Positions 16,708-31,628 of a DNA stretch of 33,339 nucleotides are shown here, piece by piece. Numbering within the stretch: position 1 is the first letter of the stretch; every line of letters starts with the position of its first letter. A program made the position numbers and the translations under genes. Under the pieces are notes generated by a model, which was given only the letters and a program-made list of their open reading frames with translations, did not search any database and was not told the DNA's origin. Source of the stretch: Nitrospira sp. CG24E (lineage in GTDB: Bacteria > Nitrospirota > Nitrospiria > Nitrospirales > Nitrospiraceae); assembly GCA_002869895.2 (NCBI GenBank), contig NEWP02000029.1, positions 72,816-106,154 of the forward strand, in the 5' to 3' direction.

Positions 16708-17838
16708 TCAAACTTTAATCGGCATGACCACGCACTTGAACCCTGGACTGTCTGATTCCTGAATCAAACAGGGGCTCAGCGGATTGTCCATTTGAAGAGA
16801 GATCGTTTCTCCATCCATCACCCCGAGCACATCCAGCAAATAGCGGGCATTGAACCCCGTATTCAGAGCCTCCCCCTCATACCGTGCGGCAAGCTCTTCG
16901 GTCGCTTCCCCGAAATCGGGATTGCTGGAAAACAGCGTCATCTGCCCGGCGGCAAAGGAGACCTTTACCGCGCTTGCCTTATCGCGGGACAGCACGGAGA
17001 CGCGCCGCAACGCACTTTCAAGCTCGCTACGATTGACCCCGATTTTCCTGTCGCTCTCTTTTGGAATGACTTGCTGATAATTCGGGTAGTTCCCCTCCAT
17101 GAGCCGCGAGGTCAACAGCAGCCCGCTCTTCCGAAAAATCATGAGATTTTTCGTAAACCCGATCAAGGGTTCTCCCTCGCCGCCCTCTTCCAACAGACGT
17201 TGCATCTCATGCGCCGCTTTCTTCGGAATGATCGCCTTGATCTCTTGCGGAGCACCCTTGGCCCCGGCCTTCCCGACCTCCTGCTCGGCAATGGCCAATC
17301 GATGTCCATCGGTGCCGACCAGCCGCAAGATCGTTTTCTTTTCCGTCGAGATAAGCGTCACTAAAAGACCGTTGAGAATGTAGCGCGCGTCGTTGTCTCC
17401 TGCGGCAAAGAGGGTTTTCCGAATCAGCTCCAGAAAACCGGCCCCGGCAAGGGGAATGAGCCCTTCCCGTTCGATCGCCGGCAGCGCGGGGTAGTCGGTG
17501 CTGGGAAGTCCGACGATCTTGAATTGGCTCTTACCGGCTTGAATCGTCGTCCAATTATTATCACCCGAGGTGATCTCGATCTCACCGACCGCCAGCTCTT
17601 TGATAATCTCGTAGAGCTTCCGGGCCGAGACCGTGATTCCCCCAGCCTTCTCCACCGTAGCCTTGTAGTGCCCCCGCATGCCGATTTCGAGATCGGTGGC
17701 GACAATTTCGACCCCCTCCTGTTTTGCCTCGATCAAAATATTGGAAAGGATCGGCATCGTATTGCGCTTCTCTACGACACCTTGAACCCGCTGGAGACCC
17801 GTCAAGAGCTCAACTCGTCCCATACGCAGTTTCATCAT
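16708..17838 (-). CDS. dnaN: DNA polymerase III beta sliding clamp
   Basis: A 376-residue sliding clamp, which encircles DNA as a dimer and tethers polymerase III and other partners. It begins MMKLRMGRVELLTGLQRVQG and contains the family blocks KRNTMPILSNILIEA, VGTDGHRLAI in the second domain, and the C-terminal hydrophobic-pocket end KCVVMPIKV. The frame is open to a GTG at 17856, but the ATG at 17838 has GGAGG 7 bases upstream and gives normal length. It starts 23 bases after the dnaA stop and is part of the dnaA-dnaN-gyrB-gyrA series. Confidence 0.96.
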   Translation of the reverse strand: MMKLRMGRVELLTGLQRVQGVVEKRNTMPILSNILIEAKQEGVEIVATDLEIGMRGHYKATVEKAGGITVSARKLYEIIKELAVGEIEITSGDNNWTTIQAGKSQFKIVGLPSTDYPALPAIEREGLIPLAGAGFLELIRKTLFAAGDNDARYILNGLLVTLISTEKKTILRLVGTDGHRLAIAEQEVGKAGAKGAPQEIKAIIPKKAAHEMQRLLEEGGEGEPLIGFTKNLMIFRKSGLLLTSRLMEGNYPNYQQVIPKESDRKIGVNRSELESALRRVSVLSRDKASAVKVSFAAGQMTLFSSNPDFGEATEELAARYEGEALNTGFNARYLLDVLGVMDGETISLQMDNPLSPCLIQESDSPGFKCVVMPIKV

Positions 17839-17861
17839 CTCTTCCCCTCCAGCCACGACGC

Positions 17862-19226
17862 TCAGGCGCGCAGGATTTGCTCTCTCAAGCTGTCCAAGGT
17901 GGCACTCAATGCACTGTCGCTGTCTTTCGCTTTCGTGACCTGCTTGCAGGCATGAATGATGGTCGTGTGGTCCTTGCCGCCGAACTGACGTCCGATTTCG
18001 GGATAAGACGAATCCGTGAGCTCCCGACAGAGATACATGGCGATCTGTCTCGGATGCACCAGCATCTTGCTTCGACGGCGAGATTTCAGATCGGCGATCT
18101 TCACGTGGAACCGCGCACCCACCGTTTCTTGAATATCGTCCATCGACACGATCTTTTTCTTGCTGCCGATCAAATCCCGGAGCACGTTCTTCGCCATCTC
18201 CAGCGTGATAGTTTGGCCTGTGAGCGAAGCATAGGCGCCAAGACGCACCAGCGACCCCTCAAGCTCGCGGATATTGCTTTTCATCGTCGTCGCAAGAAAC
18301 TGGATGACGTCTTCCGGCAGCGTGACGCCTTCGTCCTCGGACTTTTTCCGCAAGATGGCGATTCGTGTTTCAACGTCCGGCGGCTGGAGATCGGCAATCA
18401 AGCCCCATTCGAACCGCGATCTCAACCGCTCCTCAATGTCGGGCATGTCTTTCGGAAAACGATCGCTCGACAGAACAAGCTGTTTATGCGCTTCATAGAG
18501 CGCGTTGAATGTGTGAAAGAATTCCTCCTGCGTCCGCTCTTTACCCGCCAAAAATTGAATGTCGTCGATCATCAGCATATCGATATGACGATACCGCTTC
18601 CGCAGATCCATCATCTTGTCGTATCGAATGGAGTTGATGACCTCATTGGTAAACTGCTCCGTCGTCAAATATGCAATCCGGAGATCGGTCCGTTCAGCCA
18701 CATAATTCCCGATGGCATTCAAGAGATGTGTTTTTCCGAGTCCGGTCTCACCATAAATAAATAGCGGGTTATAGGCTTTTGCCGGCTGTTCAGCGACCGC
18801 CATGCAGGCGGCGTGGGCAAATTGATTTCCTGCGCCGACGACAAAATTCTTGAACGAATACTTTGGGTTCAGTAGTATGCCTCGCTTCGGCTTGACCCCT
18901 GTACTTTGGCGACTGGTTGTCGCAGTGCCCCCGCTATTTTCAGACTGCCTTGCCTGCTTCTGAGAAATAACGAACATGATAGTGGTCTCTTCTCCGCCTC
19001 GAGTAGCAGAAACAGCCTCTGCCAGAAGCGAACCGTAATGTTGGCTTAACCAGTCGCCAAAAAATTTATTTGGCACGCCAAGTTGAGCTGTAGACCCCTC
19101 GATCCTTTCAAGATGAATAGGCGTAAACCAGGTATCATAGACTTGCTTTGGAACTTTCCCTTGGATATAGGCCAAGGCGCTCTGCCATTCGCTTGGGATA
19201 GTCATAATTCCTACATTACTCTTCAT
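17862..19226 (-). CDS. dnaA: Chromosomal replication initiator protein DnaA
   Basis: A 454-residue DnaA, the AAA+ initiator that binds DnaA boxes and opens oriC. Domain I starts at SEWQSALAYIQGKVPKQVYDTWF. A short linker follows, then the AAA+ domain with Walker A GETGLGKTH (about residue 160) and Walker B MLMIDDIQFL. The C-terminal DNA-binding domain carries the signature GGKDHTTIIHACK. The ATG at 19226 gives a normal N-terminus; a second ATG at 19205, preceded by AGGA at short spacing, would remove seven residues. The gene is the first of the replication cluster and is directly preceded by a DnaA-box-containing region, so autoregulation by DnaA is likely. Confidence 0.98.
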   Translation of the reverse strand: MKSNVGIMTIPSEWQSALAYIQGKVPKQVYDTWFTPIHLERIEGSTAQLGVPNKFFGDWLSQHYGSLLAEAVSATRGGEETTIMFVISQKQARQSENSGGTATTSRQSTGVKPKRGILLNPKYSFKNFVVGAGNQFAHAACMAVAEQPAKAYNPLFIYGETGLGKTHLLNAIGNYVAERTDLRIAYLTTEQFTNEVINSIRYDKMMDLRKRYRHIDMLMIDDIQFLAGKERTQEEFFHTFNALYEAHKQLVLSSDRFPKDMPDIEERLRSRFEWGLIADLQPPDVETRIAILRKKSEDEGVTLPEDVIQFLATTMKSNIRELEGSLVRLGAYASLTGQTITLEMAKNVLRDLIGSKKKIVSMDDIQETVGARFHVKIADLKSRRRSKMLVHPRQIAMYLCRELTDSSYPEIGRQFGGKDHTTIIHACKQVTKAKDSDSALSATLDSLREQILRA

Positions 19227-19234
19227 ACACAGAC

Positions 19235-19254
19235 TTATTCACACCTGTTGATAA
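19235..19254. promoter_or_regulatory. Opposed DnaA box pair at the dnaA 5' end
   Basis: TTATTCACA (19235-19243) on the plus strand and TTATCAACA (19246-19254) on the minus strand face each other two bases apart, 9 bases upstream of the dnaA ATG. Binding here would cover the dnaA transcript start region and could serve autoregulation as well as initiation. Confidence 0.7.
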
Positions 19255-19444
19255 CCTGGTTTTTACTGAGGCCTTTCGCCTTCATCCTCGACTATTTTCA
19301 GATCTTTCATCGGTCATGGGACTATCCCTTACCTCAATCACCACAGATTATGGACTCTGCATGCAGTGGTTGCCCAGAGTCAACCCCCAATCTTCTCCAC
19401 AAAGACAGCGTAATAAGAAGCTATGATATTCAACGATTTACTTT

Positions 19445-19490
19445 CTATACACACTATCCACTCAACCTACTCCTACTCTTACTCCTACGA
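19445..19490 (-). other. Candidate DnaA-trio unwinding element
   Basis: On the minus strand, reading toward two degenerate DnaA boxes (19445-19462), the block 19467-19487 is TAG GAG TAA GAG TAG GAG TAG: seven consecutive triplets with A in the middle. DnaA-trios have consensus 5'-TAG/TAA on the strand whose 3' side meets the box, which is the arrangement here. The alternate GAG triplets depart from consensus. Confidence 0.4.
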
Positions 19491-19540
19491 CGATCTTTCT
19501 TTATTGCACAATTAACTAAGAGAAGAACTCTCTGATAAAT

Positions 19541-19783
19541 TTAGAGGACAATGATGCGATCCGCTTCGAAAATTTTTTCAACAAGGTCGTCATAGGTCAA
19601 TACCTGACGGGAATCGTCAATCGCCTCTTCTCCGCTAATTTGAACAACTCCCTTTATAGAAGAGAAGGTGATTGAAGCTGAATCTTCCATCCGGACGACA
19701 TCCATATCCCTATCGCTCACTCTAAAGAGAGAGGGAGAAATATGGTTTGTCGGTTGTCGAAGAATGTAGAGAGTCGCGCTCAT
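19541..19783 (-). CDS. DsrH/TusB-like sulfur relay protein
   Basis: An 80-residue protein whose start TLYILRQPTNHISPSLF resembles DsrH/TusB, the smallest subunit of the DsrEFH (TusBCD) sulfur-transfer complex. The C-terminal TYDDLVEKIFEADRIIVL fits the same fold. The frame is open to a TTG at 19825 that would overlap the upstream gene; the ATG at 19783 gives the natural DsrH N-terminus. No ribosome site is visible, and runs of six and seven T bases precede the ATG in the coding sense. It is the third of three DsrE-type genes in a row. The assignment rests on pattern and context. Confidence 0.6.
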   Translation of the reverse strand: MSATLYILRQPTNHISPSLFRVSDRDMDVVRMEDSASITFSSIKGVVQISGEEAIDDSRQVLTYDDLVEKIFEADRIIVL

Positions 19784-19802
19784 AAAAAAACTGATCGATA
19801 TC

Positions 19803-20144
19803 TTAAAAAACGAGACTTCTATCAACTGACCTGATTAACCGGCGTATTTCATCTGCTGGAAGAATGTTCACGGAGAAATCGTCAGACAATGTATCTATCC
19901 TCGTTCCCGGCTCGACGACAAAAGGAATGGCTAAGTGTTGAAAGGAAGGAAGATATTTTTCAAGAATATCAACATCGACTATCTCTTCTGTATTCTCCAT
20001 CAAGAGGGAAGGAGCATGGTCTAAGAGGACGACGGTTGTTTCATGATCTCCAGCGCAAAGACCCAGTGCGATTCGAAGCGCTTCAACAGGGCGACCTGTG
20101 ACAGTCGGATCGCCGGAAATCACCACTGCGATGCGTTTAGACAT
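19803..20144 (-). CDS. DsrE/DsrF-like protein
   Basis: A 113-residue protein beginning SKRIAVVISGDPTVTGRPVEALRIALGL, with the open alpha/beta fold start typical of the DsrE/DsrF/TusC family. A DHETTVVLLDHAPSLL segment follows. No cysteine is present in the usual active position, as is common for the TusC-type subunit. The frame extends two residues further to a TTG at 20150; the ATG at 20144 is used. It lies between the TusD-like and TusB-like genes with gaps of about 30 and 19 bases, consistent with one operon. Confidence 0.65.
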   Translation of the reverse strand: MSKRIAVVISGDPTVTGRPVEALRIALGLCAGDHETTVVLLDHAPSLLMENTEEIVDVDILEKYLPSFQHLAIPFVVEPGTRIDTLSDDFSVNILPADEIRRLIRSVDRSLVF

Positions 20145-20174
20145 AGACAATCAGCCGCAGTGACAATAATTCGG

Positions 20175-20495
20175 TCATGTAAAAGCGAGAAAGCGGTCGC
20201 AGCCATCGATAATCCCAGACAGTACGACAAGCCCAGATAAGGAGGCTCTCGAATCGATCGAAACAGTCGGAACACCGTGCTGCTGACAGCCGTAGGCACA
20301 GACAGACATCTTCGCTCCCGTATTCATTAAACCAAGGTAGCGAGGATCTGTAGCTACCTTCACTCCCTCATCGATCAGATAGATATAAACTTCAACACCT
20401 TGTCGTAAAGCTGCCAGTGCCAACTGGACGACCGTCTCAACACTCGGGTGCGAAGGGGATGTGGATAACAATAGACCCAACCTACGGTCCGCCAT
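20175..20495 (-). CDS. DsrE/TusD-like sulfur relay protein
   Basis: A 106-residue DsrE-family protein. The N-terminal strand RRLGLLLSTSPSHPSVETVVQLALAALRQGVEVYIYLIDEGV is typical of the family, and the two cysteines in VCAYGCQQHG sit where TusD/DsrE carries its persulfide-forming cysteine. Such proteins pass sulfane sulfur along a relay, for tRNA 2-thiouridine or for sulfur oxidation. It is the first of three similar small genes. A possible promoter lies at 20553-20581. No clear ribosome site precedes the ATG. Which relay it serves is not decided by the window. Confidence 0.75.
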   Translation of the reverse strand: MADRRLGLLLSTSPSHPSVETVVQLALAALRQGVEVYIYLIDEGVKVATDPRYLGLMNTGAKMSVCAYGCQQHGVPTVSIDSRASLSGLVVLSGIIDGCDRFLAFT

Positions 20496-20597: not shown

Positions 20598-21863
20598 TTA
20601 TGTGGAGAAAGTACGAGCTCTTAGAAGGGACCCGAGTCCTGAGAGGGGGAGAACTTCTTGCGCCTTGGATTCGAGATTGCGGAGGATGACAGTGCCACGA
20701 GCGACTTCGTCATCGCCCAGGAGAATGGCATAGCGGCATTTGGATCGGTCAGCTTGGCGAAGATGAGATTTGAGAGAAGTGGAACGGTAGTCACATTGGG
20801 CAGAAAGTCCAGCTCTTCGGAGTTCATCGAGCAAGACCAAACCACACTTCACTCCTGCTTCTCCAAAAGCCGCGACGTAATAGAGACATTCATCTCGTAG
20901 AGAAATGGATGTCTTCTGGAGCATCAAGGATACACGCTCAAGCCCTACCGCGAATCCTACGGCAGGAACAGAGGGTCCCCCGAGAGTTTCCACCAGGCCA
21001 TCGTAGCGACCACCGGCACCCACTGCGTTCTGAGCTCCTAAATGAGAGGAGGTAATCTCAAAACTGGTCAAACAATAGTAATCGAGTCCTCGAACTAACC
21101 GAGGATTCAGTTGATAGGGGACACCAAGAGCCAGTAGACCGGAGAGGACCTGGTCAAAATGCGCACGGGCTTCAGGAGAAAGGTGGTCCATCAGCCTGGG
21201 TGCCGACTCAGTCGCAGCGCGACATTCAGGCACCTTGCAATCCAACACCCGCAAAGGATTTGTGTCCATACGGCGTCGGCAGTTTTCACAGAAACTGGAT
21301 TCTTGCTGTGAGAGGAACGAGCGCAAGAGAGGCTTGTACGTCACGCGATCACCGGAGCTTCCCAGACTATTGATCTCAAGTGTCAGGTCTGGCAGAGCCA
21401 GGTCCGACAGCAGGCGCCACAGCAGCGCAATAACCTCGATGTCCGCACGGGGGTCCGACGTGCCAAAGGATTCGACACCGAATTGATGAAACTGCCGGAG
21501 GCGTCCTGCTTGGGGCCGCTCGTGGCGGAACATGGGGCCGATGTAGAAATACTTCTGTGGGAGAGGATCAGCCGCCCGATTGTGCTCGATGAAGGCGCGA
21601 ACTGTACCAGCCGTGCCCTCCGGACGCAACGTGAGCGATGTCCCATCCCGATCAGGAAAGGTGTACATCTCCTTTTCGACGATGTCCGTCGCAGAGCCGA
21701 TACTCCTGGCAAAGAGCGCAGTCAGTTCGAATAGGGGAATGCGGATTTCCTGATATCCGTAACAGAGCGCCCAGCGCCTCGCCGTATCTTCAATGAGACG
21801 CCACCGAGGCGTTTCTTCGGGAAGGATATCCTTGACGCCCTTGATGGCTTTGATCGAATCCAT
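20598..21863 (-). CDS. hisS: Histidyl-tRNA synthetase
   Basis: A 421-residue class II synthetase that charges tRNA-His. Seen motifs: GVKDILPEETPRWR at the N-terminus, motif 2 with FYIGPMFRHERPQAGRLRQFHQ, the histidine-specific LVRGLDYY block, and motif 3 GFAVGLERV. A zinc-like cysteine set (FCENCRRRMD, then CKVPEC) lies in the insertion, as in many bacterial enzymes. The frame is open to 22016, but a near-consensus promoter at 21891-21919 places transcription start near 21884, so the ATG at 21863 is the start and length is normal. The ribosome site is weak. It precedes the DsrE-like genes on the same strand. Confidence 0.96.
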   Translation of the reverse strand: MDSIKAIKGVKDILPEETPRWRLIEDTARRWALCYGYQEIRIPLFELTALFARSIGSATDIVEKEMYTFPDRDGTSLTLRPEGTAGTVRAFIEHNRAADPLPQKYFYIGPMFRHERPQAGRLRQFHQFGVESFGTSDPRADIEVIALLWRLLSDLALPDLTLEINSLGSSGDRVTYKPLLRSFLSQQESSFCENCRRRMDTNPLRVLDCKVPECRAATESAPRLMDHLSPEARAHFDQVLSGLLALGVPYQLNPRLVRGLDYYCLTSFEITSSHLGAQNAVGAGGRYDGLVETLGGPSVPAVGFAVGLERVSLMLQKTSISLRDECLYYVAAFGEAGVKCGLVLLDELRRAGLSAQCDYRSTSLKSHLRQADRSKCRYAILLGDDEVARGTVILRNLESKAQEVLPLSGLGSLLRARTFST

Positions 21864-21890
21864 ACTGAGAGGCCGTTGCGAAAAATCGGG

Positions 21891-21919
21891 ACTATAGCCG
21901 CGGGCTACAGGCATGTCAA
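21891..21919 (-). promoter_or_regulatory. hisS promoter
   Basis: Minus strand TTGACA (21914-21919), exactly 17 bases and TATAGT (21891-21896). Expected transcription start is about 21884, giving a 21-base leader. This excludes longer upstream starts for hisS. Confidence 0.78.
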
Positions 21920-21930
21920 CGCGGACCTGG

Positions 21931-22166
21931 CAGGACGCTGAAAAGGTCTCCGTTCTCACCCGCCCAACCCCGGCGTGCCGAGACGCGCCTTTTCCCATGC
22001 ATCGTTCTCGCATCATTCAGATCCTCAACGGGGACCCGGCCGCCTCACTAACTCAGCGGCGCGCACAAACTTCGTGCTCCTTATTCGTCGCACCGTGCGC
22101 CCCAGAGGGTACGCCTGCAGTCTTCACTCGCTGCGGCCTTGCTGGGCGGTCTTTTTGAGCGTCCTG
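21931..22166. repeat. Dispersed palindromic repeat, copy 2 (enlarged)
   Basis: A 236-base element with ends CAGGACGCTGAAAAGG and, read from the right on the other strand, CAGGACGCTCAAAAAG. The right part (CACTCGCTGCGGCCTTGCTG, GAGGGTACGC) and the CGTTCTCGCATC word match copy 1. It contains about 110 extra bases in the interior, so it is an expanded or composite copy. It lies between the divergent hisS and thyX promoters, and the 21864-22310 gap holds nothing else but those promoters. Confidence 0.8.
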
Positions 22167-22244
22167 CTTGATTAGTTTACGAGAACACCTGTTCGGCGAT
22201 TCTAAGGTTCATGAACGACGCAGGGCGAGAGTCGCCGTGCCTTC

Positions 22245-22273
22245 TTGCGCCAATCGGTGCGCGGGGGTATAGT
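22245..22273 (+). promoter_or_regulatory. Putative promoter of the ThyX-like gene
   Basis: TTGCGC (22245-22250), a 17-base spacer and TATAGT (22268-22273) give a start near 22280 and a 31-base leader that ends with an AAGGA ribosome site before the ATG at 22311. Confidence 0.6.
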
Positions 22274-22310
22274 TCGCGGCCTATCTCTATCTGTCACTGA
22301 AGGAAGCGTC

Positions 22311-23798
22311 ATGAGTGTAGATCAACCGAACCGCCGCGTCATCGCGCTCGCACCGATGCCGCCCGAGAAGTCCGCCTATGCCCTGGCCCGCTATAGCAGA
22401 TCGCCCGACTCTATCGAGAGCAGCCTCCGCTGGGGACATGGCCATTCTTCTGAAAAGTTCTGGGATCAGTTCTATTTCGACTACGGCCATGCCTCGATTG
22501 CCGATTTGGGCCATGTCATCATCTGCTTCGAGGACATCTCCGAGCTCGCCGCGATTCGGCTTGAGGACGAGCCTCTGTGGGATGGCCAGGCAAAATCCAG
22601 CCGGTATCAAAACTTTGCGTCCGGCGGGTGGTTCGTGCCCGATTCCATTCGGGGGTCGGAAACAGAAGGCACCTATTTCGGCATTCTCCGCAGCCTTGCC
22701 GAGATCTATAGGCTCCTACACGAACCCTTAACCCAATTTATTTCGGAACGTGAACCGCGACCCGAGTCGATGAAACCGGCCGATTACCAACGAACGATTG
22801 CCGCACGCGCATTCGATGTGACGCGGTATCTCTTGCCCCTCGCAGCCAAGACCAACGTCGGGCAGGTGGTCAGTATCAGGACGCTGGAGAAACAGATCAC
22901 GAGACTCTTGTCATCCCAGCTGCCGGAGCTTCGTGCAATCGGAGATGAACTGAAGGATGCCTGCCAGCGGTCGCCCGTCAACCTCTGGGGTGAACTCTGC
23001 GGTCAACCGGTCGGAGCGCATGAACCCCTCGCCCCGACGTTAGCCCGCCATGCGAAGCCGAACGACTATCAGGCCTCGGTCTATCAGGCCCTCGCCACAT
23101 ACGCGAAGGACGCGCTTCGGGGAACCGGATTAGATCAACCGACAGCCTGGGGCGAGCCGGAGCCGGTAACGCTCATCGAATCTCATGATCCATTGGACGA
23201 GATCGTGACCACTTTGCTGTACCGCGTCTCGCACGCGCCCTATCGGAGCCTCCTTGCGGTCGTCCGCACCTGGACAGAGAAGCAAAAACAGGAGGCTGTC
23301 GACGTGGCGACGAGCGCACGGGGACCCTACGACGAACTCATCAAAGAATTCCGCAGCGGCTATGCTTTCACATTCGATGTGCTGATGGACATCGGAGGCT
23401 GGCGCGACATGCATCGGCACCGGCGTTGCCAGCAGATTCAACAGAACTTTACGACGCTGCACGGCTATGAAGTGCCGCCGCCGCTCGTACAGGCTGGATT
23501 GGATCATGAGTATCGGCAGGCGATGGACGCGGTCCGATCGGATATCGAGCAGCTCAAGAAAACGAGCGCGGAGGGATCGCTCTACGCGACGCCGTTTGGA
23601 TTCAAAGTCCGATGCCTCTTCAAGATGGACTACGCGGAAGCCGAGTACATCGCCAGACTCCGTTCCGGCGTGAAGGGCCACTGGTCGTATCGGACCGTGG
23701 CCTGGCTGATGAAAGAAAAAATTGCTGCGCGCTATCCTTCACTCGGGGATCGCATCCAGGCGACCTCGCCGGACATTGAGGATACCCTCACAAGATAG
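22311..23798 (+). CDS. Two-domain ThyX-like (FAD-dependent thymidylate synthase family) protein
   Basis: A 495-residue protein composed of two ThyX-like halves. ThyX makes dTMP from dUMP with FAD, methylene-tetrahydrofolate and NADPH. Half one has FDYGHASIADLGHVIICFEDIS and ends its signature region in AKSSRY, but the RHR of the RHRxxSxxxxSGRY signature is absent (residues 81-100). Half two has RHR at residues 369-371 (RDMHRHRRCQQIQQNF) but lacks the following Ser and SGRY. Each half thus retains part of the signature. The ATG at 22311 follows AAGGA and a good promoter; the longer frame from 22245 overlaps the promoter and is rejected. It is followed by a TPR gene 17 bases later. It may be an active divergent synthase or a repurposed homologue. 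Confidence 0.78.
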   Translation: MSVDQPNRRVIALAPMPPEKSAYALARYSRSPDSIESSLRWGHGHSSEKFWDQFYFDYGHASIADLGHVIICFEDISELAAIRLEDEPLWDGQAKSSRYQNFASGGWFVPDSIRGSETEGTYFGILRSLAEIYRLLHEPLTQFISEREPRPESMKPADYQRTIAARAFDVTRYLLPLAAKTNVGQVVSIRTLEKQITRLLSSQLPELRAIGDELKDACQRSPVNLWGELCGQPVGAHEPLAPTLARHAKPNDYQASVYQALATYAKDALRGTGLDQPTAWGEPEPVTLIESHDPLDEIVTTLLYRVSHAPYRSLLAVVRTWTEKQKQEAVDVATSARGPYDELIKEFRSGYAFTFDVLMDIGGWRDMHRHRRCQQIQQNFTTLHGYEVPPPLVQAGLDHEYRQAMDAVRSDIEQLKKTSAEGSLYATPFGFKVRCLFKMDYAEAEYIARLRSGVKGHWSYRTVAWLMKEKIAARYPSLGDRIQATSPDIEDTLTR

Positions 23799-23815
23799 CC
23801 ACGATACCGATCCGA

Positions 23816-24853
23816 ATGACCGACTACCAAGCCCAGTGTGAAACCGCGCTGTTGGAAGGCCGATGGGATCAGGCGCAGCAGACAGCGCTGGCCTGGGCTT
23901 GCCATCCTGCCACCGGCATGGACCGGAACCCTCGACCCCATTTCGCCCTGAACGTGATTCAGTTGCTCCATGGGGAGTTCGCCGAAGCCTGGACGACTCA
24001 CCAGAGATGTCTCCAAGAATCCGAAGATATTGCCCTGGTCAAAGAATGGGTCGAAAGATTCGTCGCGCAACAGTCTCAGCAGGCCAACGCCCATCTCGTG
24101 ATGGGGTTATTCCTGGCGCAGTCGGGACAATCTGAACAGTCGATCGTGTCCTATAAGGAAGCGTCCAAGCTCGCACCGCAGTCCGCGTACCCCCATTATT
24201 TTCTCGCGCAGATTCACGAGCGGGCCAACCATCTCGAAATGGCGATCAAGGAATACCGTGAAGCGGTGCGACTGGATCCTTCCTATGCGCCGGCGCGGAC
24301 CAACTTGGGTGTGGCCTATCAAGAGCAGGGACGGTTGGAGATGGCGATTCCTCAATATCGCGAAGTCATCAAATTATGTCCCCATGATCCGATAGCCCAC
24401 GCAAACCTCGCCTGCTCGCTCGCCGAGCAGGGCAAATTTGAACCGGCTTTGCAGTCGTACAAAGAGGCTTTGCGCCTGAATCCCAATGACGCAGAGGTGC
24501 ATTTTTCGCTGGGAGGTCTCTACGAAACGAGAGGCCGTCTGGATCTGGCAGAGAAGGAGTACAACGCGGCGCTCATCGCCGATCCGAACTTCGGCCCGGC
24601 GCACTCAGCGATCGGCTGGCTGGCGTTGGGTAGACAACACCTGCAGGCCGCCTACGAAGCCTTCAACCGGGCTCTCAAGTCGAACGACCAAGATCCTCGG
24701 GCCTACCACGGCATCGCCGAATACTATTCTCAAAAGGGGAAACGAGAGAGCGCTCTGGATAATTTTACAAAAGCCCTCAAGTACTACAAAGATCCCGAGA
24801 AGAGAAACGCGATACTGAACCAGCTATTTCAAGAAGGACAAATGGCGGATTAG
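23816..24853 (+). CDS. Tetratricopeptide repeat protein
   Basis: A 345-residue soluble protein. After an N-terminal helical region of about 85 residues, some seven TPR units follow (about residues 88-325), with the consensus A at position 8 and A-P at position 20/32 visible, for example AHLVMGLFLAQSGQ and ARTNLGVAYQEQGRLEMA. TPR arrays bind protein partners and have no enzymatic role. It starts 17 bases after the ThyX-like stop, so the two genes are probably co-transcribed. The last residues run up to repeat copy 3. The partner is unknown; the neighbouring kinase-regulator pair is one candidate. Confidence 0.85.
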   Translation: MTDYQAQCETALLEGRWDQAQQTALAWACHPATGMDRNPRPHFALNVIQLLHGEFAEAWTTHQRCLQESEDIALVKEWVERFVAQQSQQANAHLVMGLFLAQSGQSEQSIVSYKEASKLAPQSAYPHYFLAQIHERANHLEMAIKEYREAVRLDPSYAPARTNLGVAYQEQGRLEMAIPQYREVIKLCPHDPIAHANLACSLAEQGKFEPALQSYKEALRLNPNDAEVHFSLGGLYETRGRLDLAEKEYNAALIADPNFGPAHSAIGWLALGRQHLQAAYEAFNRALKSNDQDPRAYHGIAEYYSQKGKRESALDNFTKALKYYKDPEKRNAILNQLFQEGQMAD

Positions 24854-28352: not shown

Positions 28353-31300
28353 ATGGCAAAAGGAAGTGGAGAGTCGAAGATCGCCCTGGTGGGTGTGGTT
28401 ACCCTCGCGGTCGCGCTCGCCGGCGTGCTGTTGGTGAAGGAGCCTCTGCGGAGTTCTCGCCCGGTAGGGACCGGGTTGGAAGTGAAACAGACCACCAGTG
28501 AACAATCGGTTCGCGCGAGGCTGTGGGAAGATCCTCTGGCAGCGGTGCAGCGGGGGATGGGAGAGGCGCCGCCGGCAGCAAGCGGGTTGTCCAAGTCTTC
28601 GTCCAGCCGGTCGGCCGACTCGTTTCTCGTACAGCGCCTGAGACCGCTGAGGCATGCGATTGCCGACCGGGTCAAGAAGGATGAGCGGATCACCGTCCTC
28701 TTGGTGACGATGAGCGGTGATCCCTATGCGGAGAGTGCTGAGTCCCGCATCCGGGATCGTTATGCGGTCGGCACTGCGTTGGGTGTCGCCTGCTATGTCC
28801 CGGAAGATGAGGGGCATCTCTCGTTCATCGAGGGCAATACTCAGGGCACTGGTTTCTTGCCCTACGAATGGTATCGGCTCCGGAAGACCAAGGTTTGTGG
28901 CGAGGGACAGGACCGGGCTCAAAATACCCTCGTGGTCTGGGTCTCCGATGACGCACTCAGCCGAGGGTTCCTGGCCACCTTGACCTCGTTGTCGCAAGCC
29001 CTGGTGTGCCAAGAGTCGACAGAGAAAAGCGAATGTCTCTTTACCGATGACCGGCGCAGGCTGGTCCGGCTGAATCCGAGGTTGCAACAGTCCGTCACGT
29101 TCAAGATTGTGGGGCCCCGCAGCTCCTCAGCCCTGCGTCAACTCCTGGATGAAGCCGGAGGCTTGTATACCGAGCCCCATGAAGGAATCGGGGCCTGGCC
29201 GAACGCAGATGGGACCATCGAGCTCTATTCGCCTTGGGCCAGCGCGATGAAGGGGCTCATGGCCTATGGGCTGAAGAAGGAGCGGGGGAAGGGATCTGCC
29301 TGCCAGGCTTATGAAGCCTGCGAGGAGGAGTTTTCCCATCGGCTGGCCGCTGCAAATGTGAGGCTCGTCTACGAGGTCGGAACCGACGATCGGCTTTTCA
29401 CCACGCTGATCGAAGAATTAGAACGGCGTCAGGTACGGCTCGGCTGGGATGCGGTGATCCTGATCGGGGAATGGGATTCCTTCTATGGCCGAGCATTGCC
29501 CATCGAGTTTCGCGCGGCGGCCTGCGCGAAGGTGGCAACGTTCACGGAGCTAGAGCTCAAGCAGATTCAGGTGCCGGCGACGATCAAATCCTGGTGTCCG
29601 ACTGTTCCGCGCGCGGTCGATTTGCAGATTCAGCGCCCGGCTGACTATGAGTCCCTGACCTTGAACGTCTTCCGCTATAGCTATCTGAGCGGTCTCGATG
29701 GCGAAGTGCCGGGCGACGATGCGGTGAACGCCGGACGTGGAGAGAGCTCCAAGGCCAATGTGACGGCGAAGGATCTGCTGGCCGGTGGGTTGCGGGAACG
29801 TCCGGAGGGAACGAGCCAGCTCGATTATGTGCGGGCCTTGACGACAAGGATCCAAGACGAAGGAGAGGGAGCAAAAGCGATCGGTATTCTGGGCAGGGAT
29901 CCCTACGATGCTTTGCTCATTCTGAAAGCGCTCCGGCCGGCCTTCCCCTACGCTGTTTTCTTCACCGTCGATCTCGATGCGCGCCATCTTCACGCCGGCG
30001 AGTACAAGTGGACCAGGAACATGGTCGTCGCCTCGCCGTTCGGCCTGCAGTTGGACGGGAGTCTCCAGCGCGACGTTCCGCCGTTCCGGAGCAGCTATCA
30101 AACTGCCACATACTTTGCCGTGCTGCGGGCGGTGAATCACGTGACCTGTCGAGCAGGGGGGGATCGGCAGCCGTCGGCGGGGCCCTGTCAGGCAGGGTAT
30201 CACGTGCCGCTGACCCCCGAAGACCGGGTCTACGATTCGGCTGAACATCCTCGCATCTTCGAAGTGGGGCGCGAGGGCGCCGTGGACCTCAGCGTCGTGG
30301 ATGTCGAAGGGGTGAGAACGATCCATCCCCTGCGCGCGGATCTCGATCATACGGACAGTTATGGTCAGCTGAAACAGGGTATCGGCCCCAGCAGCGCAAC
30401 GGTGATGGCGCTGGTCGGGATCGGGCTGTTCATTGTGACGGCGCTTGCCTGGAAGAATGAGCGAGTCTGGCTCCGGGTTTCTCGGTCCTGGGGTCTGTTC
30501 GCACTGGCTGGTCTGTTGCTACTCGCCGGGACTGCGATCTTTTTGACTCTGGGCGGCGGCACAGCCCTTATGGCCCAGCACGATGAAGGCGAACCCTTCT
30601 CCTGGACTGCCGGTGTAAGCATTTGGCCCGGCGAGTGGCTCCGGTTTCTCGTGGTGCTTATGTGCCTTGTCTTCCTGGTCAAGGGGGCTCGCGATCTGAC
30701 GAAGAACAGCGACCGCCTCACCGACGATTTCTCATTCCGCATGGATCAGAGCCCCCGCTCCCGATTTACCCTGAGGATTTGGTGGACCAATGTGCAACGG
30801 ATCTATCATCCGGCTGCCACCAGAGCCGCCACCACGGTTGATCAAGCCTGGTCCTGGTATCTCAACGGCGCCGCCCCGCTGCAGAGGGCGGCGCGCCTGC
30901 TGGTCCTGTTTCTCCTGTATGGCGCGATGATGATGTCTCTGGACCATTGGGTCCTTGACGAAGAGATGATCCAACCCTGTCGGGGCTGGCTAAGCTGTCG
31001 AGTGGATTCGATCATGACGCTGGTCAGCATGAGCTGCGTGGTGCTGCTCAATCTGGCGGTATTCGACGAGGTCATGTTGTGCCGTCGGTGGGTCGGTTGG
31101 GTGAACAGCACGAGCGGGGGCTGGTCCGATCAGGTGCAACAGAAATACTTGCGCGAGTATGGATTGAGCCAGAGCCATCAGGCAGAGTTTGACAAGCTCA
31201 AATATTTGGCCGGCATCGACCTGATCAGCCGGCGGACGGAAGCGGTCAATCGCCTCATCCGGTACCCCTTCATCGCCCTGCTGATTATGATCGCTGCCCG

Positions 31301-31628
31301 CAACGACTACTTCGATATTTGGAACTATCCGGTCTTGCTGCTGCTGGCCTGGGCCTTGAACGTCGTTCTGGCGCTGGGCGGGGCGATGTTGCTCTATCGC
31401 TCCGCCGACCGCGCGAAGCAGTCGGTTTTGGCCGGGCTGAGCAAGCAAATGATCCAAGCGCTCGGGCTCGGCAAGGACCACGAAGTCCGCGCAAAGCAGG
31501 TCCAGTACATCATCGGCGAGGTTGAGGCCAACCAGAAGGGCGCCTTCGTTCCTTTCTATCAGCAGCCGGTCGTTGAGTCTTCGCTCTACGGCCTCGTGGC
31601 CCTGCTGCAATATCTCTATTTGAAGTAA
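28353..31628 (+). CDS. Large uncharacterised membrane protein
   Basis: A 1091-residue protein of no family I can name. One membrane segment lies at residues 10-28, followed by about 650 residues likely outside the cytoplasm. About seven segments lie in the last 410 residues (near 683-702, 712-735, 763-780, 847-866, 886-905, 969-985 and 990-1014), leaving a cytoplasmic tail of about 75 residues. The exported part has alternating alpha/beta sequence with DAVILIGEWDSFYGRALP, AKAIGILGRDPYDALLILKAL and YAVFFTVDLDARHL, suggesting a periplasmic-binding (type 1) fold; this is inference. The ATG at 28353 has a weak ribosome site. It stands after a sigma-54 activator gene and ends 10 bases before an esterase gene. 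Length and topology suggest a sensor or signalling protein. Confidence 0.75.
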   Translation: MAKGSGESKIALVGVVTLAVALAGVLLVKEPLRSSRPVGTGLEVKQTTSEQSVRARLWEDPLAAVQRGMGEAPPAASGLSKSSSSRSADSFLVQRLRPLRHAIADRVKKDERITVLLVTMSGDPYAESAESRIRDRYAVGTALGVACYVPEDEGHLSFIEGNTQGTGFLPYEWYRLRKTKVCGEGQDRAQNTLVVWVSDDALSRGFLATLTSLSQALVCQESTEKSECLFTDDRRRLVRLNPRLQQSVTFKIVGPRSSSALRQLLDEAGGLYTEPHEGIGAWPNADGTIELYSPWASAMKGLMAYGLKKERGKGSACQAYEACEEEFSHRLAAANVRLVYEVGTDDRLFTTLIEELERRQVRLGWDAVILIGEWDSFYGRALPIEFRAAACAKVATFTELELKQIQVPATIKSWCPTVPRAVDLQIQRPADYESLTLNVFRYSYLSGLDGEVPGDDAVNAGRGESSKANVTAKDLLAGGLRERPEGTSQLDYVRALTTRIQDEGEGAKAIGILGRDPYDALLILKALRPAFPYAVFFTVDLDARHLHAGEYKWTRNMVVASPFGLQLDGSLQRDVPPFRSSYQTATYFAVLRAVNHVTCRAGGDRQPSAGPCQAGYHVPLTPEDRVYDSAEHPRIFEVGREGAVDLSVVDVEGVRTIHPLRADLDHTDSYGQLKQGIGPSSATVMALVGIGLFIVTALAWKNERVWLRVSRSWGLFALAGLLLLAGTAIFLTLGGGTALMAQHDEGEPFSWTAGVSIWPGEWLRFLVVLMCLVFLVKGARDLTKNSDRLTDDFSFRMDQSPRSRFTLRIWWTNVQRIYHPAATRAATTVDQAWSWYLNGAAPLQRAARLLVLFLLYGAMMMSLDHWVLDEEMIQPCRGWLSCRVDSIMTLVSMSCVVLLNLAVFDEVMLCRRWVGWVNSTSGGWSDQVQQKYLREYGLSQSHQAEFDKLKYLAGIDLISRRTEAVNRLIRYPFIALLIMIAARNDYFDIWNYPVLLLLAWALNVVLALGGAMLLYRSADRAKQSVLAGLSKQMIQALGLGKDHEVRAKQVQYIIGEVEANQKGAFVPFYQQPVVESSLYGLVALLQYLYLK

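Follow-up and report, generated by a model that had tools for sequence, protein, structure and literature searches.

A tandem ThyX from Nitrospira divides the conserved motif between its two domains and probably serves as a thymidylate synthase

The window, a 33,339-nt stretch of contig NEWP02000029.1 from Nitrospira sp. CG24E, carries a gene that encodes two Thy1 domains in a single chain, hereafter tandem thyX (Table 1). A TTG at 22245 in the same frame is a possible alternative start, and no Rfam match lies within 21800-24000. The gene has hisS, on the opposite strand, and a TPR gene as neighbors; dnaA (17862-19226) is about 3 kb away and is adjoined by dnaN. The segment holding dnaN and dnaA (16708-20468) includes a low-GC stretch (18001-20000, GC 0.472), and two DnaA-box-like sites are present at 19235-19243 (+) and 20460-20468 (-). 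On the other side, a 1091-aa ORF (28353-31628, +) has no Pfam match at E ≤ 1e-5. Judged by ORF lengths, N. moscoviensis and N. defluvii show a matching hisS-like/thyX/TPR-like order, close to the end of either chromosome record. The replication origin probably lies between dnaA and hisS, which would make tandem thyX origin-proximal.

Table 1. Window coordinates of tandem thyX, of its two halves (boundaries chosen by us from alignments) and of key residue codons; Mtb, M. tuberculosis ThyX
Feature	Position	Strand	Evidence and assigned role
Tandem thyX gene, two Thy1 domains	22311..23798	+	ATG at 22311, stop ending at 23798, intact ORF of 495 aa; ORF, Pfam, AlphaFold model and structure alignment
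Half one, residues 1-235	22311..23015	+	Predicted ThyX fold; keeps Ser-x-Arg-Tyr and GHxS, putatively acting as subunits C and B do in Mtb; without RHR and without the Arg199 counterpart
Half two, residues 286-495	23166..23795	+	Predicted ThyX fold; keeps RHR and Arg199, putative role of Mtb subunit A; without Ser-x-Arg-Tyr
S62 codon	22494..22496	+	Corresponds to Mtb Ser71 (subunit B; contacts the FAD phosphate/ribityl; role from a passage of PMC6514825); Ser in 30/30 type-B rows
S96-S97-R98-Y99 codons	22596..22607	+	Corresponds to Mtb Ser105-x-Arg107-Tyr108 (subunit C; lid Tyr and residues contacting dUMP) and to T. maritima Ser88-x-Arg90-Tyr91
R369-H370-R371 codons	23415..23423	+	RHR motif (subunit A; contacts FAD and dUMP)
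R451 codon	23661..23663	+	Corresponds to Mtb Arg199 and T. maritima Arg174, which activate dUMP; Arg in 30/30 type-B rows

Pfam Thy1 (PF02511) matches the 495-aa protein in two stretches, scoring 81.4 bits (cut-off 24.8), and matches all 17 rows of our alignment A2. The only other families returned by the Pfam scan were two below their cut-offs, and PF00303 (ThyA) was not matched. The NCBIfam thyX equivalog TIGR02170 gives 19.8 bits for the window protein and 27.1 bits for the N. moscoviensis homolog against a cut-off of 87.9, which places both outside the canonical family. Searching PDB sequences with the protein or with our profile A1 did not return ThyX. An initial AlphaFold model that used 24 close relatives had a low pLDDT of 51.5; the second model used 52 more varied rows, viral-contig relatives among them, and reached a mean pLDDT of 82.9 and a pTM of 0.79. 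With this second model the top Foldseek matches were ThyX chains (E 1.3e-3, probability 1.00). In VIA-align comparisons of the predicted model, residues 12-222 of half one superpose on M. tuberculosis ThyX (3gwc_D; Z 11.3, rmsd 2.9, 191 residues) and residues 291-489 of half two on T. maritima ThyX (3g4a_B; Z 11.0, rmsd 2.9, 183 residues). Among the 50 VIA-align entries listed, the ThyX fold, with PolB and C. glutamicum ThyX counted as such, accounts for the first 47 (Z of at least 9.5); entry 48 drops to Z 4.9. Both halves are thus ThyX folds in the predicted structure.

A first-pass annotation of this stretch had described a two-domain ThyX-like protein with a split, degenerate signature, in which half one lacks RHR, half two keeps RHR without the later Ser and SGRY, and neither half holds the complete motif of ordinary ThyX. 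Our analysis bears out the domain count and each of these absences. The RHR place of half one, 10 to 8 residues before the Ser, reads D-E-P; half two has R369-H370-R371 and reads N-F-T-T at its Ser-x-Arg-Tyr place; and RHR-x7-S-x-R-Y/F inside one domain, which we took as the mark of canonical ThyX, is found in neither. The annotation had passed over the fact that half one keeps S96-S97-R98-Y99 complete, which, read at the level of sequence, makes the two halves complementary. We use the name tandem ThyX for proteins with two ThyX domains per chain and such a complementary split of the two motif arms, a criterion devised in this analysis.

The division recurs in every row compared from the relatives of the window protein, which we call type B. 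We compared 30 type-B rows picked for diversity, among them the window with 3 of 80 Nitrospira loci, 2 of 30 loci of family f2 and 1 of 24 Ma-LMM01-like contigs (L223, L229, L231 and L232 were left out). Half ones have the Ser, the Arg and Tyr/Phe in 30/30 rows each and RHR in 0/30. Half twos have the first Arg and the His of RHR in 30/30 and the third Arg in 21/30, with Asn in the other 9, and at their Ser-x-Arg-Tyr place Ser occurs in 3/30 and Arg and Tyr/Phe in 0/30 each. The nine RHN variants are tandem ThyX of Bacillus-type phages and plasmids (L192, L194, L222, L224-L228 and L230). Tandem ThyX of a second type, type A, found in other Nitrospirota (for example L130, L131 and L132), share the domain order and the identical division (17/17 and 0/17); here, L147, whose ORF is cut by a contig end, and L146, which has one half only, were set aside. 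The complementary split therefore holds in 47 of the 47 tandem proteins counted (30 type B and 17 type A), drawn from Nitrospirota, phages, plasmids and viral contigs. Across 17 type-B rows with 20-83% identity to the window protein, the columns that stay identical are S29, R30, S31, S62, S96, R98, R172, P176 and E206 in half one and R369, H370, L450, R451 and R461 in half two. Single-domain ThyX controls carry the complete R-H-R...S-x-R-Y in 40/44, a largely circular control because 41 of the 44 had been chosen by that very pattern. Single-domain variants also occur elsewhere in the phylum, with KHR for RHR (L140, L141) or Cys for the lid Tyr (L149, SRRC).

Purifying selection acts on both halves, with a dN/dS of 0.03-0.09 in 15 of the 16 comparisons that cover them and the 16th not computable. 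No internal stop interrupts any of the translations of the 80 Nitrospira homologs (80 of 222 confirmed loci), and an alignment of 81 rows has 207 invariant positions. We rejected a pseudogene or a decaying gene on account of the lack of stops, the low dN/dS and the retention of the split, which is not decay because the same division holds in every tandem protein counted. "Degenerate" is a misnomer here, both arms being strictly conserved, one per half.

In ordinary ThyX these arms come from different subunits of the homotetramer. A review passage on M. tuberculosis ThyX assigns the dUMP contacts to Arg95 and Arg199 of subunit A and to Arg87, Ser105, Arg107 and the lid Tyr108 of subunit C, and the FAD contacts to RHR of subunit A and to Ser71 and Arg190 of subunit B (PMC6514825). 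Passages on other ThyX describe Gln75/Arg182 from monomer A and Ser88/Gln89 from monomer B in the PBCV-1 enzyme (PMC3498832) and, in the T. maritima enzyme, S88A, R90A and Y91A substitutions that slow the step and R174 as the residue that activates dUMP (PMC8316439). We carried these roles from the PDB alignment to an alignment of the halves of 27 of the 47 tandem proteins (18 type B, 9 type A). Arg95 and Arg199 of role A are each present in 27/27 half twos and 0/27 half ones; Ser105 and Arg107 of role C are each present in 27/27 half ones and in 2/27 and 1/27 half twos; and Ser71 of role B is Ser or Thr in 27/27 half ones and 1/27 half twos. Under alternative gap placement, 10 of the 30 type-B half ones have an Arg one residue off the Arg199 counterpart, and type-A half ones have one two residues ahead of it. 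Four positions are exceptions. Mtb Arg190 (role B) is Arg in 11/18 type-B half ones, 6/18 type-B half twos and 0/9 type-A halves; Mtb Arg87 is kept in 9/9 half ones of type A and only 4/18 of type B; in 14/18 type-B half twos Asp replaces the Gln that precedes RHR; and the middle His of RHR is retained in 9/9 type-A half ones.

Because the Mtb role residues divide in this way in the mapped proteins, half two reads in sequence as a fixed A, and half one as a fixed C and B. The halves keep complementary residues of different subunits and therefore probably build each working site jointly. The first-pass annotation had offered a composite site as one of two options, and the match between the residues kept per half and those contributed by different subunits in solved single-domain ThyX argues strongly for it. 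A thymidylate synthase could instead work through a single half with a remodeled motif, the other half being a scaffold. Each half does keep the ThyX fold, and the motif varies in some single-domain ThyX (KHR in 2/44, Cys for the lid Tyr in 1/44). We regard this reading as quite improbable, however: in all 47 rows each half retains precisely the arm that its partner has lost, an invariant Ser-x-Arg-Tyr or RHR is unexpected in a scaffold half, and dN/dS points to equal constraint on both halves.

The closest relatives of the window protein are from Nitrospira (80 of the 222 confirmed loci) and include genes on the N. moscoviensis and Ca. N. defluvii chromosomes. Thy1 matches occur in 236/295 sampled genomes of the phylum and in 77/79 genomes of the window's family (a hand count of listed rows), and in a sister family 47/48 genomes (33/33 of good quality) carry the tandem gene, some copies being in pieces. 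Type-B relatives also occur in other Nitrospirota, in phages (16 records, 10 of which cover at least 80% of the query) and in plasmids (10 records, 7 covering at least 80%). In viral contigs, relatives were found with the queries L186, L193, A3 and A4; scans with A1, L185, L189 and L190 gave none. The copy of phage Tunturi_5 lies among dUTPase and dCMP deaminase genes, and that of a Euzebya plasmid near a dCTP deaminase gene.

We searched the source genome, a draft that is 98.24% complete, for other routes to thymidylate. It has no PF00303 ThyA match at E ≤ 0.001, no Thy1 (PF02511) match beyond the two in the tandem gene, no PF00186 DHFR (DHFR_1) and no PF00265 thymidine kinase, and positive-control genomes gave matches in these searches. 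Looking for thyA or a second thyX in the genome, the check put forward in the first-pass annotation, thus favors the tandem protein as the main synthase, and we rejected a role as a backup to a canonical synthase here, none having matched in these searches. ThyA was found in 0/32 genomes of the genus, and class-wide a PF00303 match occurs in 7/196 genomes, 6 of them above the cut-off. Among 40 chosen genomes of the phylum, thyA occurs in 6, DHFR is above the cut-off in those same 6 (G011 has a match below it), and thyA directly adjoins DHFR in 6/6 genomes having both; the three of these six that were searched for Thy1 and A1 gave no match. The tandem gene is present in 32 of the 34 chosen genomes that lack thyA, including G117, which has a single-domain ThyX as well. 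One genus code covers both G137, with a type-A tandem gene and no thyA, and G252, with thyA and DHFR and no Thy1. ThyA yields dihydrofolate and hence needs DHFR, and ThyX releases tetrahydrofolate, so that an exchange of the tandem gene for thyA plus DHFR is as predicted for a ThyX-type synthase. As no other synthase was found in the genome and relatives replace the gene by thyA and DHFR, the tandem protein is very probably the thymidylate synthase of this genome.

The adjoining thyA-DHFR pair of these six genomes (L151-L154, L233-L238) replaces ThyX in part of family f6. In four of the sampled genomes (G117, G151, G159 and G204) a single-domain ThyX occurs in addition to the tandem gene (L133, L144, L143 and L145); these are complete and of varied kinds, and some may be phage-borne. 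Two drafts from the window's family, G018 and G232 (99% and 94% complete), gave no Thy1, tandem gene, thyA, DHFR or thymidine kinase in profile searches, which we take as missing contigs or assembly gaps.

The second option of the first-pass annotation, a divergent flavoenzyme with another role, for example methylation of another pyrimidine nucleotide, fares poorly. It has precedents in the Thy1 fold, judged by PDB titles: PolB is a UMP/dUMP methylase, and C. glutamicum ThyX is not required for thymidylate synthesis. The model also aligns with PolB (4p5b) and C. glutamicum ThyX (3fnn, 3ge9) at Z 10.8-12.0, and the tandem sequence is far from canonical ThyX by its TIGR02170 score. Against this, searches of the genome turned up no second thymidylate synthase, relatives replace the gene by thyA and DHFR, the dUMP contacts are retained, and phage and plasmid copies adjoin dUMP-supplying genes in the two cases noted above. 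We rejected another substrate as the main role and judge this reading very unlikely. That the gene is inactive, the cells living on imported thymidine or on a true synthase yet to be recognized, is barely credible: the draft consists of 99 contigs, absence searches can miss genes, and G018 and G232 show no synthase by the same searches, but the source genome and 18 others lack PF00265 thymidine kinase, dN/dS is low in both halves and the 80 Nitrospira homologs are free of internal stops.

We consider it highly likely that tandem ThyX is a flavin- and folate-dependent thymidylate synthase with ThyX chemistry, a fused duplicate whose halves share out the active-site roles and whose dimer is a pseudo-tetramer with two composite sites. 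The ordinary homotetramer site draws on three subunits: A (RHR and the activating Arg), C (Ser-x-Arg-Tyr) and B (the Ser71-type FAD contacts). In the tandem enzyme the A role would be fixed in half two and the C and B roles in half one. We infer a dimeric assembly, a pseudo-tetramer whose four sites would comprise two that work and two that are dead, with FAD bound once per chain; a working site would join one chain's half two to a pair of half ones. The enzyme would convert dUMP, methylene-tetrahydrofolate and a reductant, with FAD, to dTMP and would release tetrahydrofolate, in which case the genome would need neither thyA nor a ThyA-linked DHFR.

Tandem ThyX shares with single-domain ThyX (PF02511, TIGR02170; T. 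maritima TM0449 and M. tuberculosis ThyX) the fold of both halves. The dUMP-contact residues given in the review passage (PMC6514825), except Mtb Arg87, are present once per tandem chain. It differs in having two domains per chain, with RHR and Ser-x-Arg-Tyr in separate domains, in scoring far below the TIGR02170 cut-off, and in that two complete sites are expected rather than four. Type-A proteins are nearer canonical ThyX than the window protein: two of them, scored against TIGR02170, exceed its cut-off with 92.5 and 96.9 bits, and the type has conserved PFYNSEQVSQRY and ADSQDQRHR blocks. The phage thymidylate synthase family phrog_36506, to which gp020 of Microcystis phage Ma-LMM01 belongs, is also tandem, with the same split, and matches the window protein at 6.3e-30 over residues 21-474; gp020 itself is about 27% identical to it. 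Database labels of the relatives read "FAD-dependent thymidylate synthase" or "thymidylate synthase".

The ThyX of Chlamydia trachomatis is about twice the usual length and is perhaps tandem too. A passage of one study reports that its activity was assayed (PMC3498832). Domain-duplicated ThyX was noted in 2009 in Chloroflexi "and a few other species" and termed uncharacterized (PMC3224940). By that description the architecture is alike; the passage itself gives neither motif nor mechanism. A division of the arms between the halves would explain why the duplicated ThyX of 2009 looks degenerate if read half by half. We found no description of the split in the open-licence literature searched, and an earlier one may exist. 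The duplicated architecture was already known, and the split active site and the place of sole synthase in Nitrospira appear to be undescribed.

Nitrospira are major nitrite oxidizers and include complete ammonia oxidizers. The dTMP supply of the sampled members seems to depend on a single unusual enzyme that the NCBI ThyX equivalog misses at its cut-off. Should the composite-site model hold, tandem ThyX would provide a natural, covalently fixed test of multi-subunit ThyX sites: with one arm per half, each arm could be changed separately within one chain, which is impossible in a homotetramer. It would also be a clear case of paralogous domains splitting one active site.

We further compared the two types for signs of one origin or two. 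In a tree of 68 rows of halves, made by a quick method with the motif columns removed, each half-group of each type forms one side of a branch, and the half ones of types A and B do not join. Holding the half ones together was not rejected by the AU test (p 0.18), nor was holding the half twos together (p 0.557). Profile comparison between the types gives 5.6e-14 for half one against half one and 8.3e-14 for half two against half two; comparisons across halves are weaker, at 4.4e-5 within type B and 0.009, 0.0012 and 0.17 otherwise. A doubtful scenario would have ThyX duplication, fusion and reciprocal division of roles happen twice, in A and in B, each time converting a homotetramer with four sites into a pseudo-heterotetramer with two, with the lost sites kept as a regulatory nucleotide site. 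Invariant residues, for example S29-R30-S31 and Y425, do remain in these putative lost sites.
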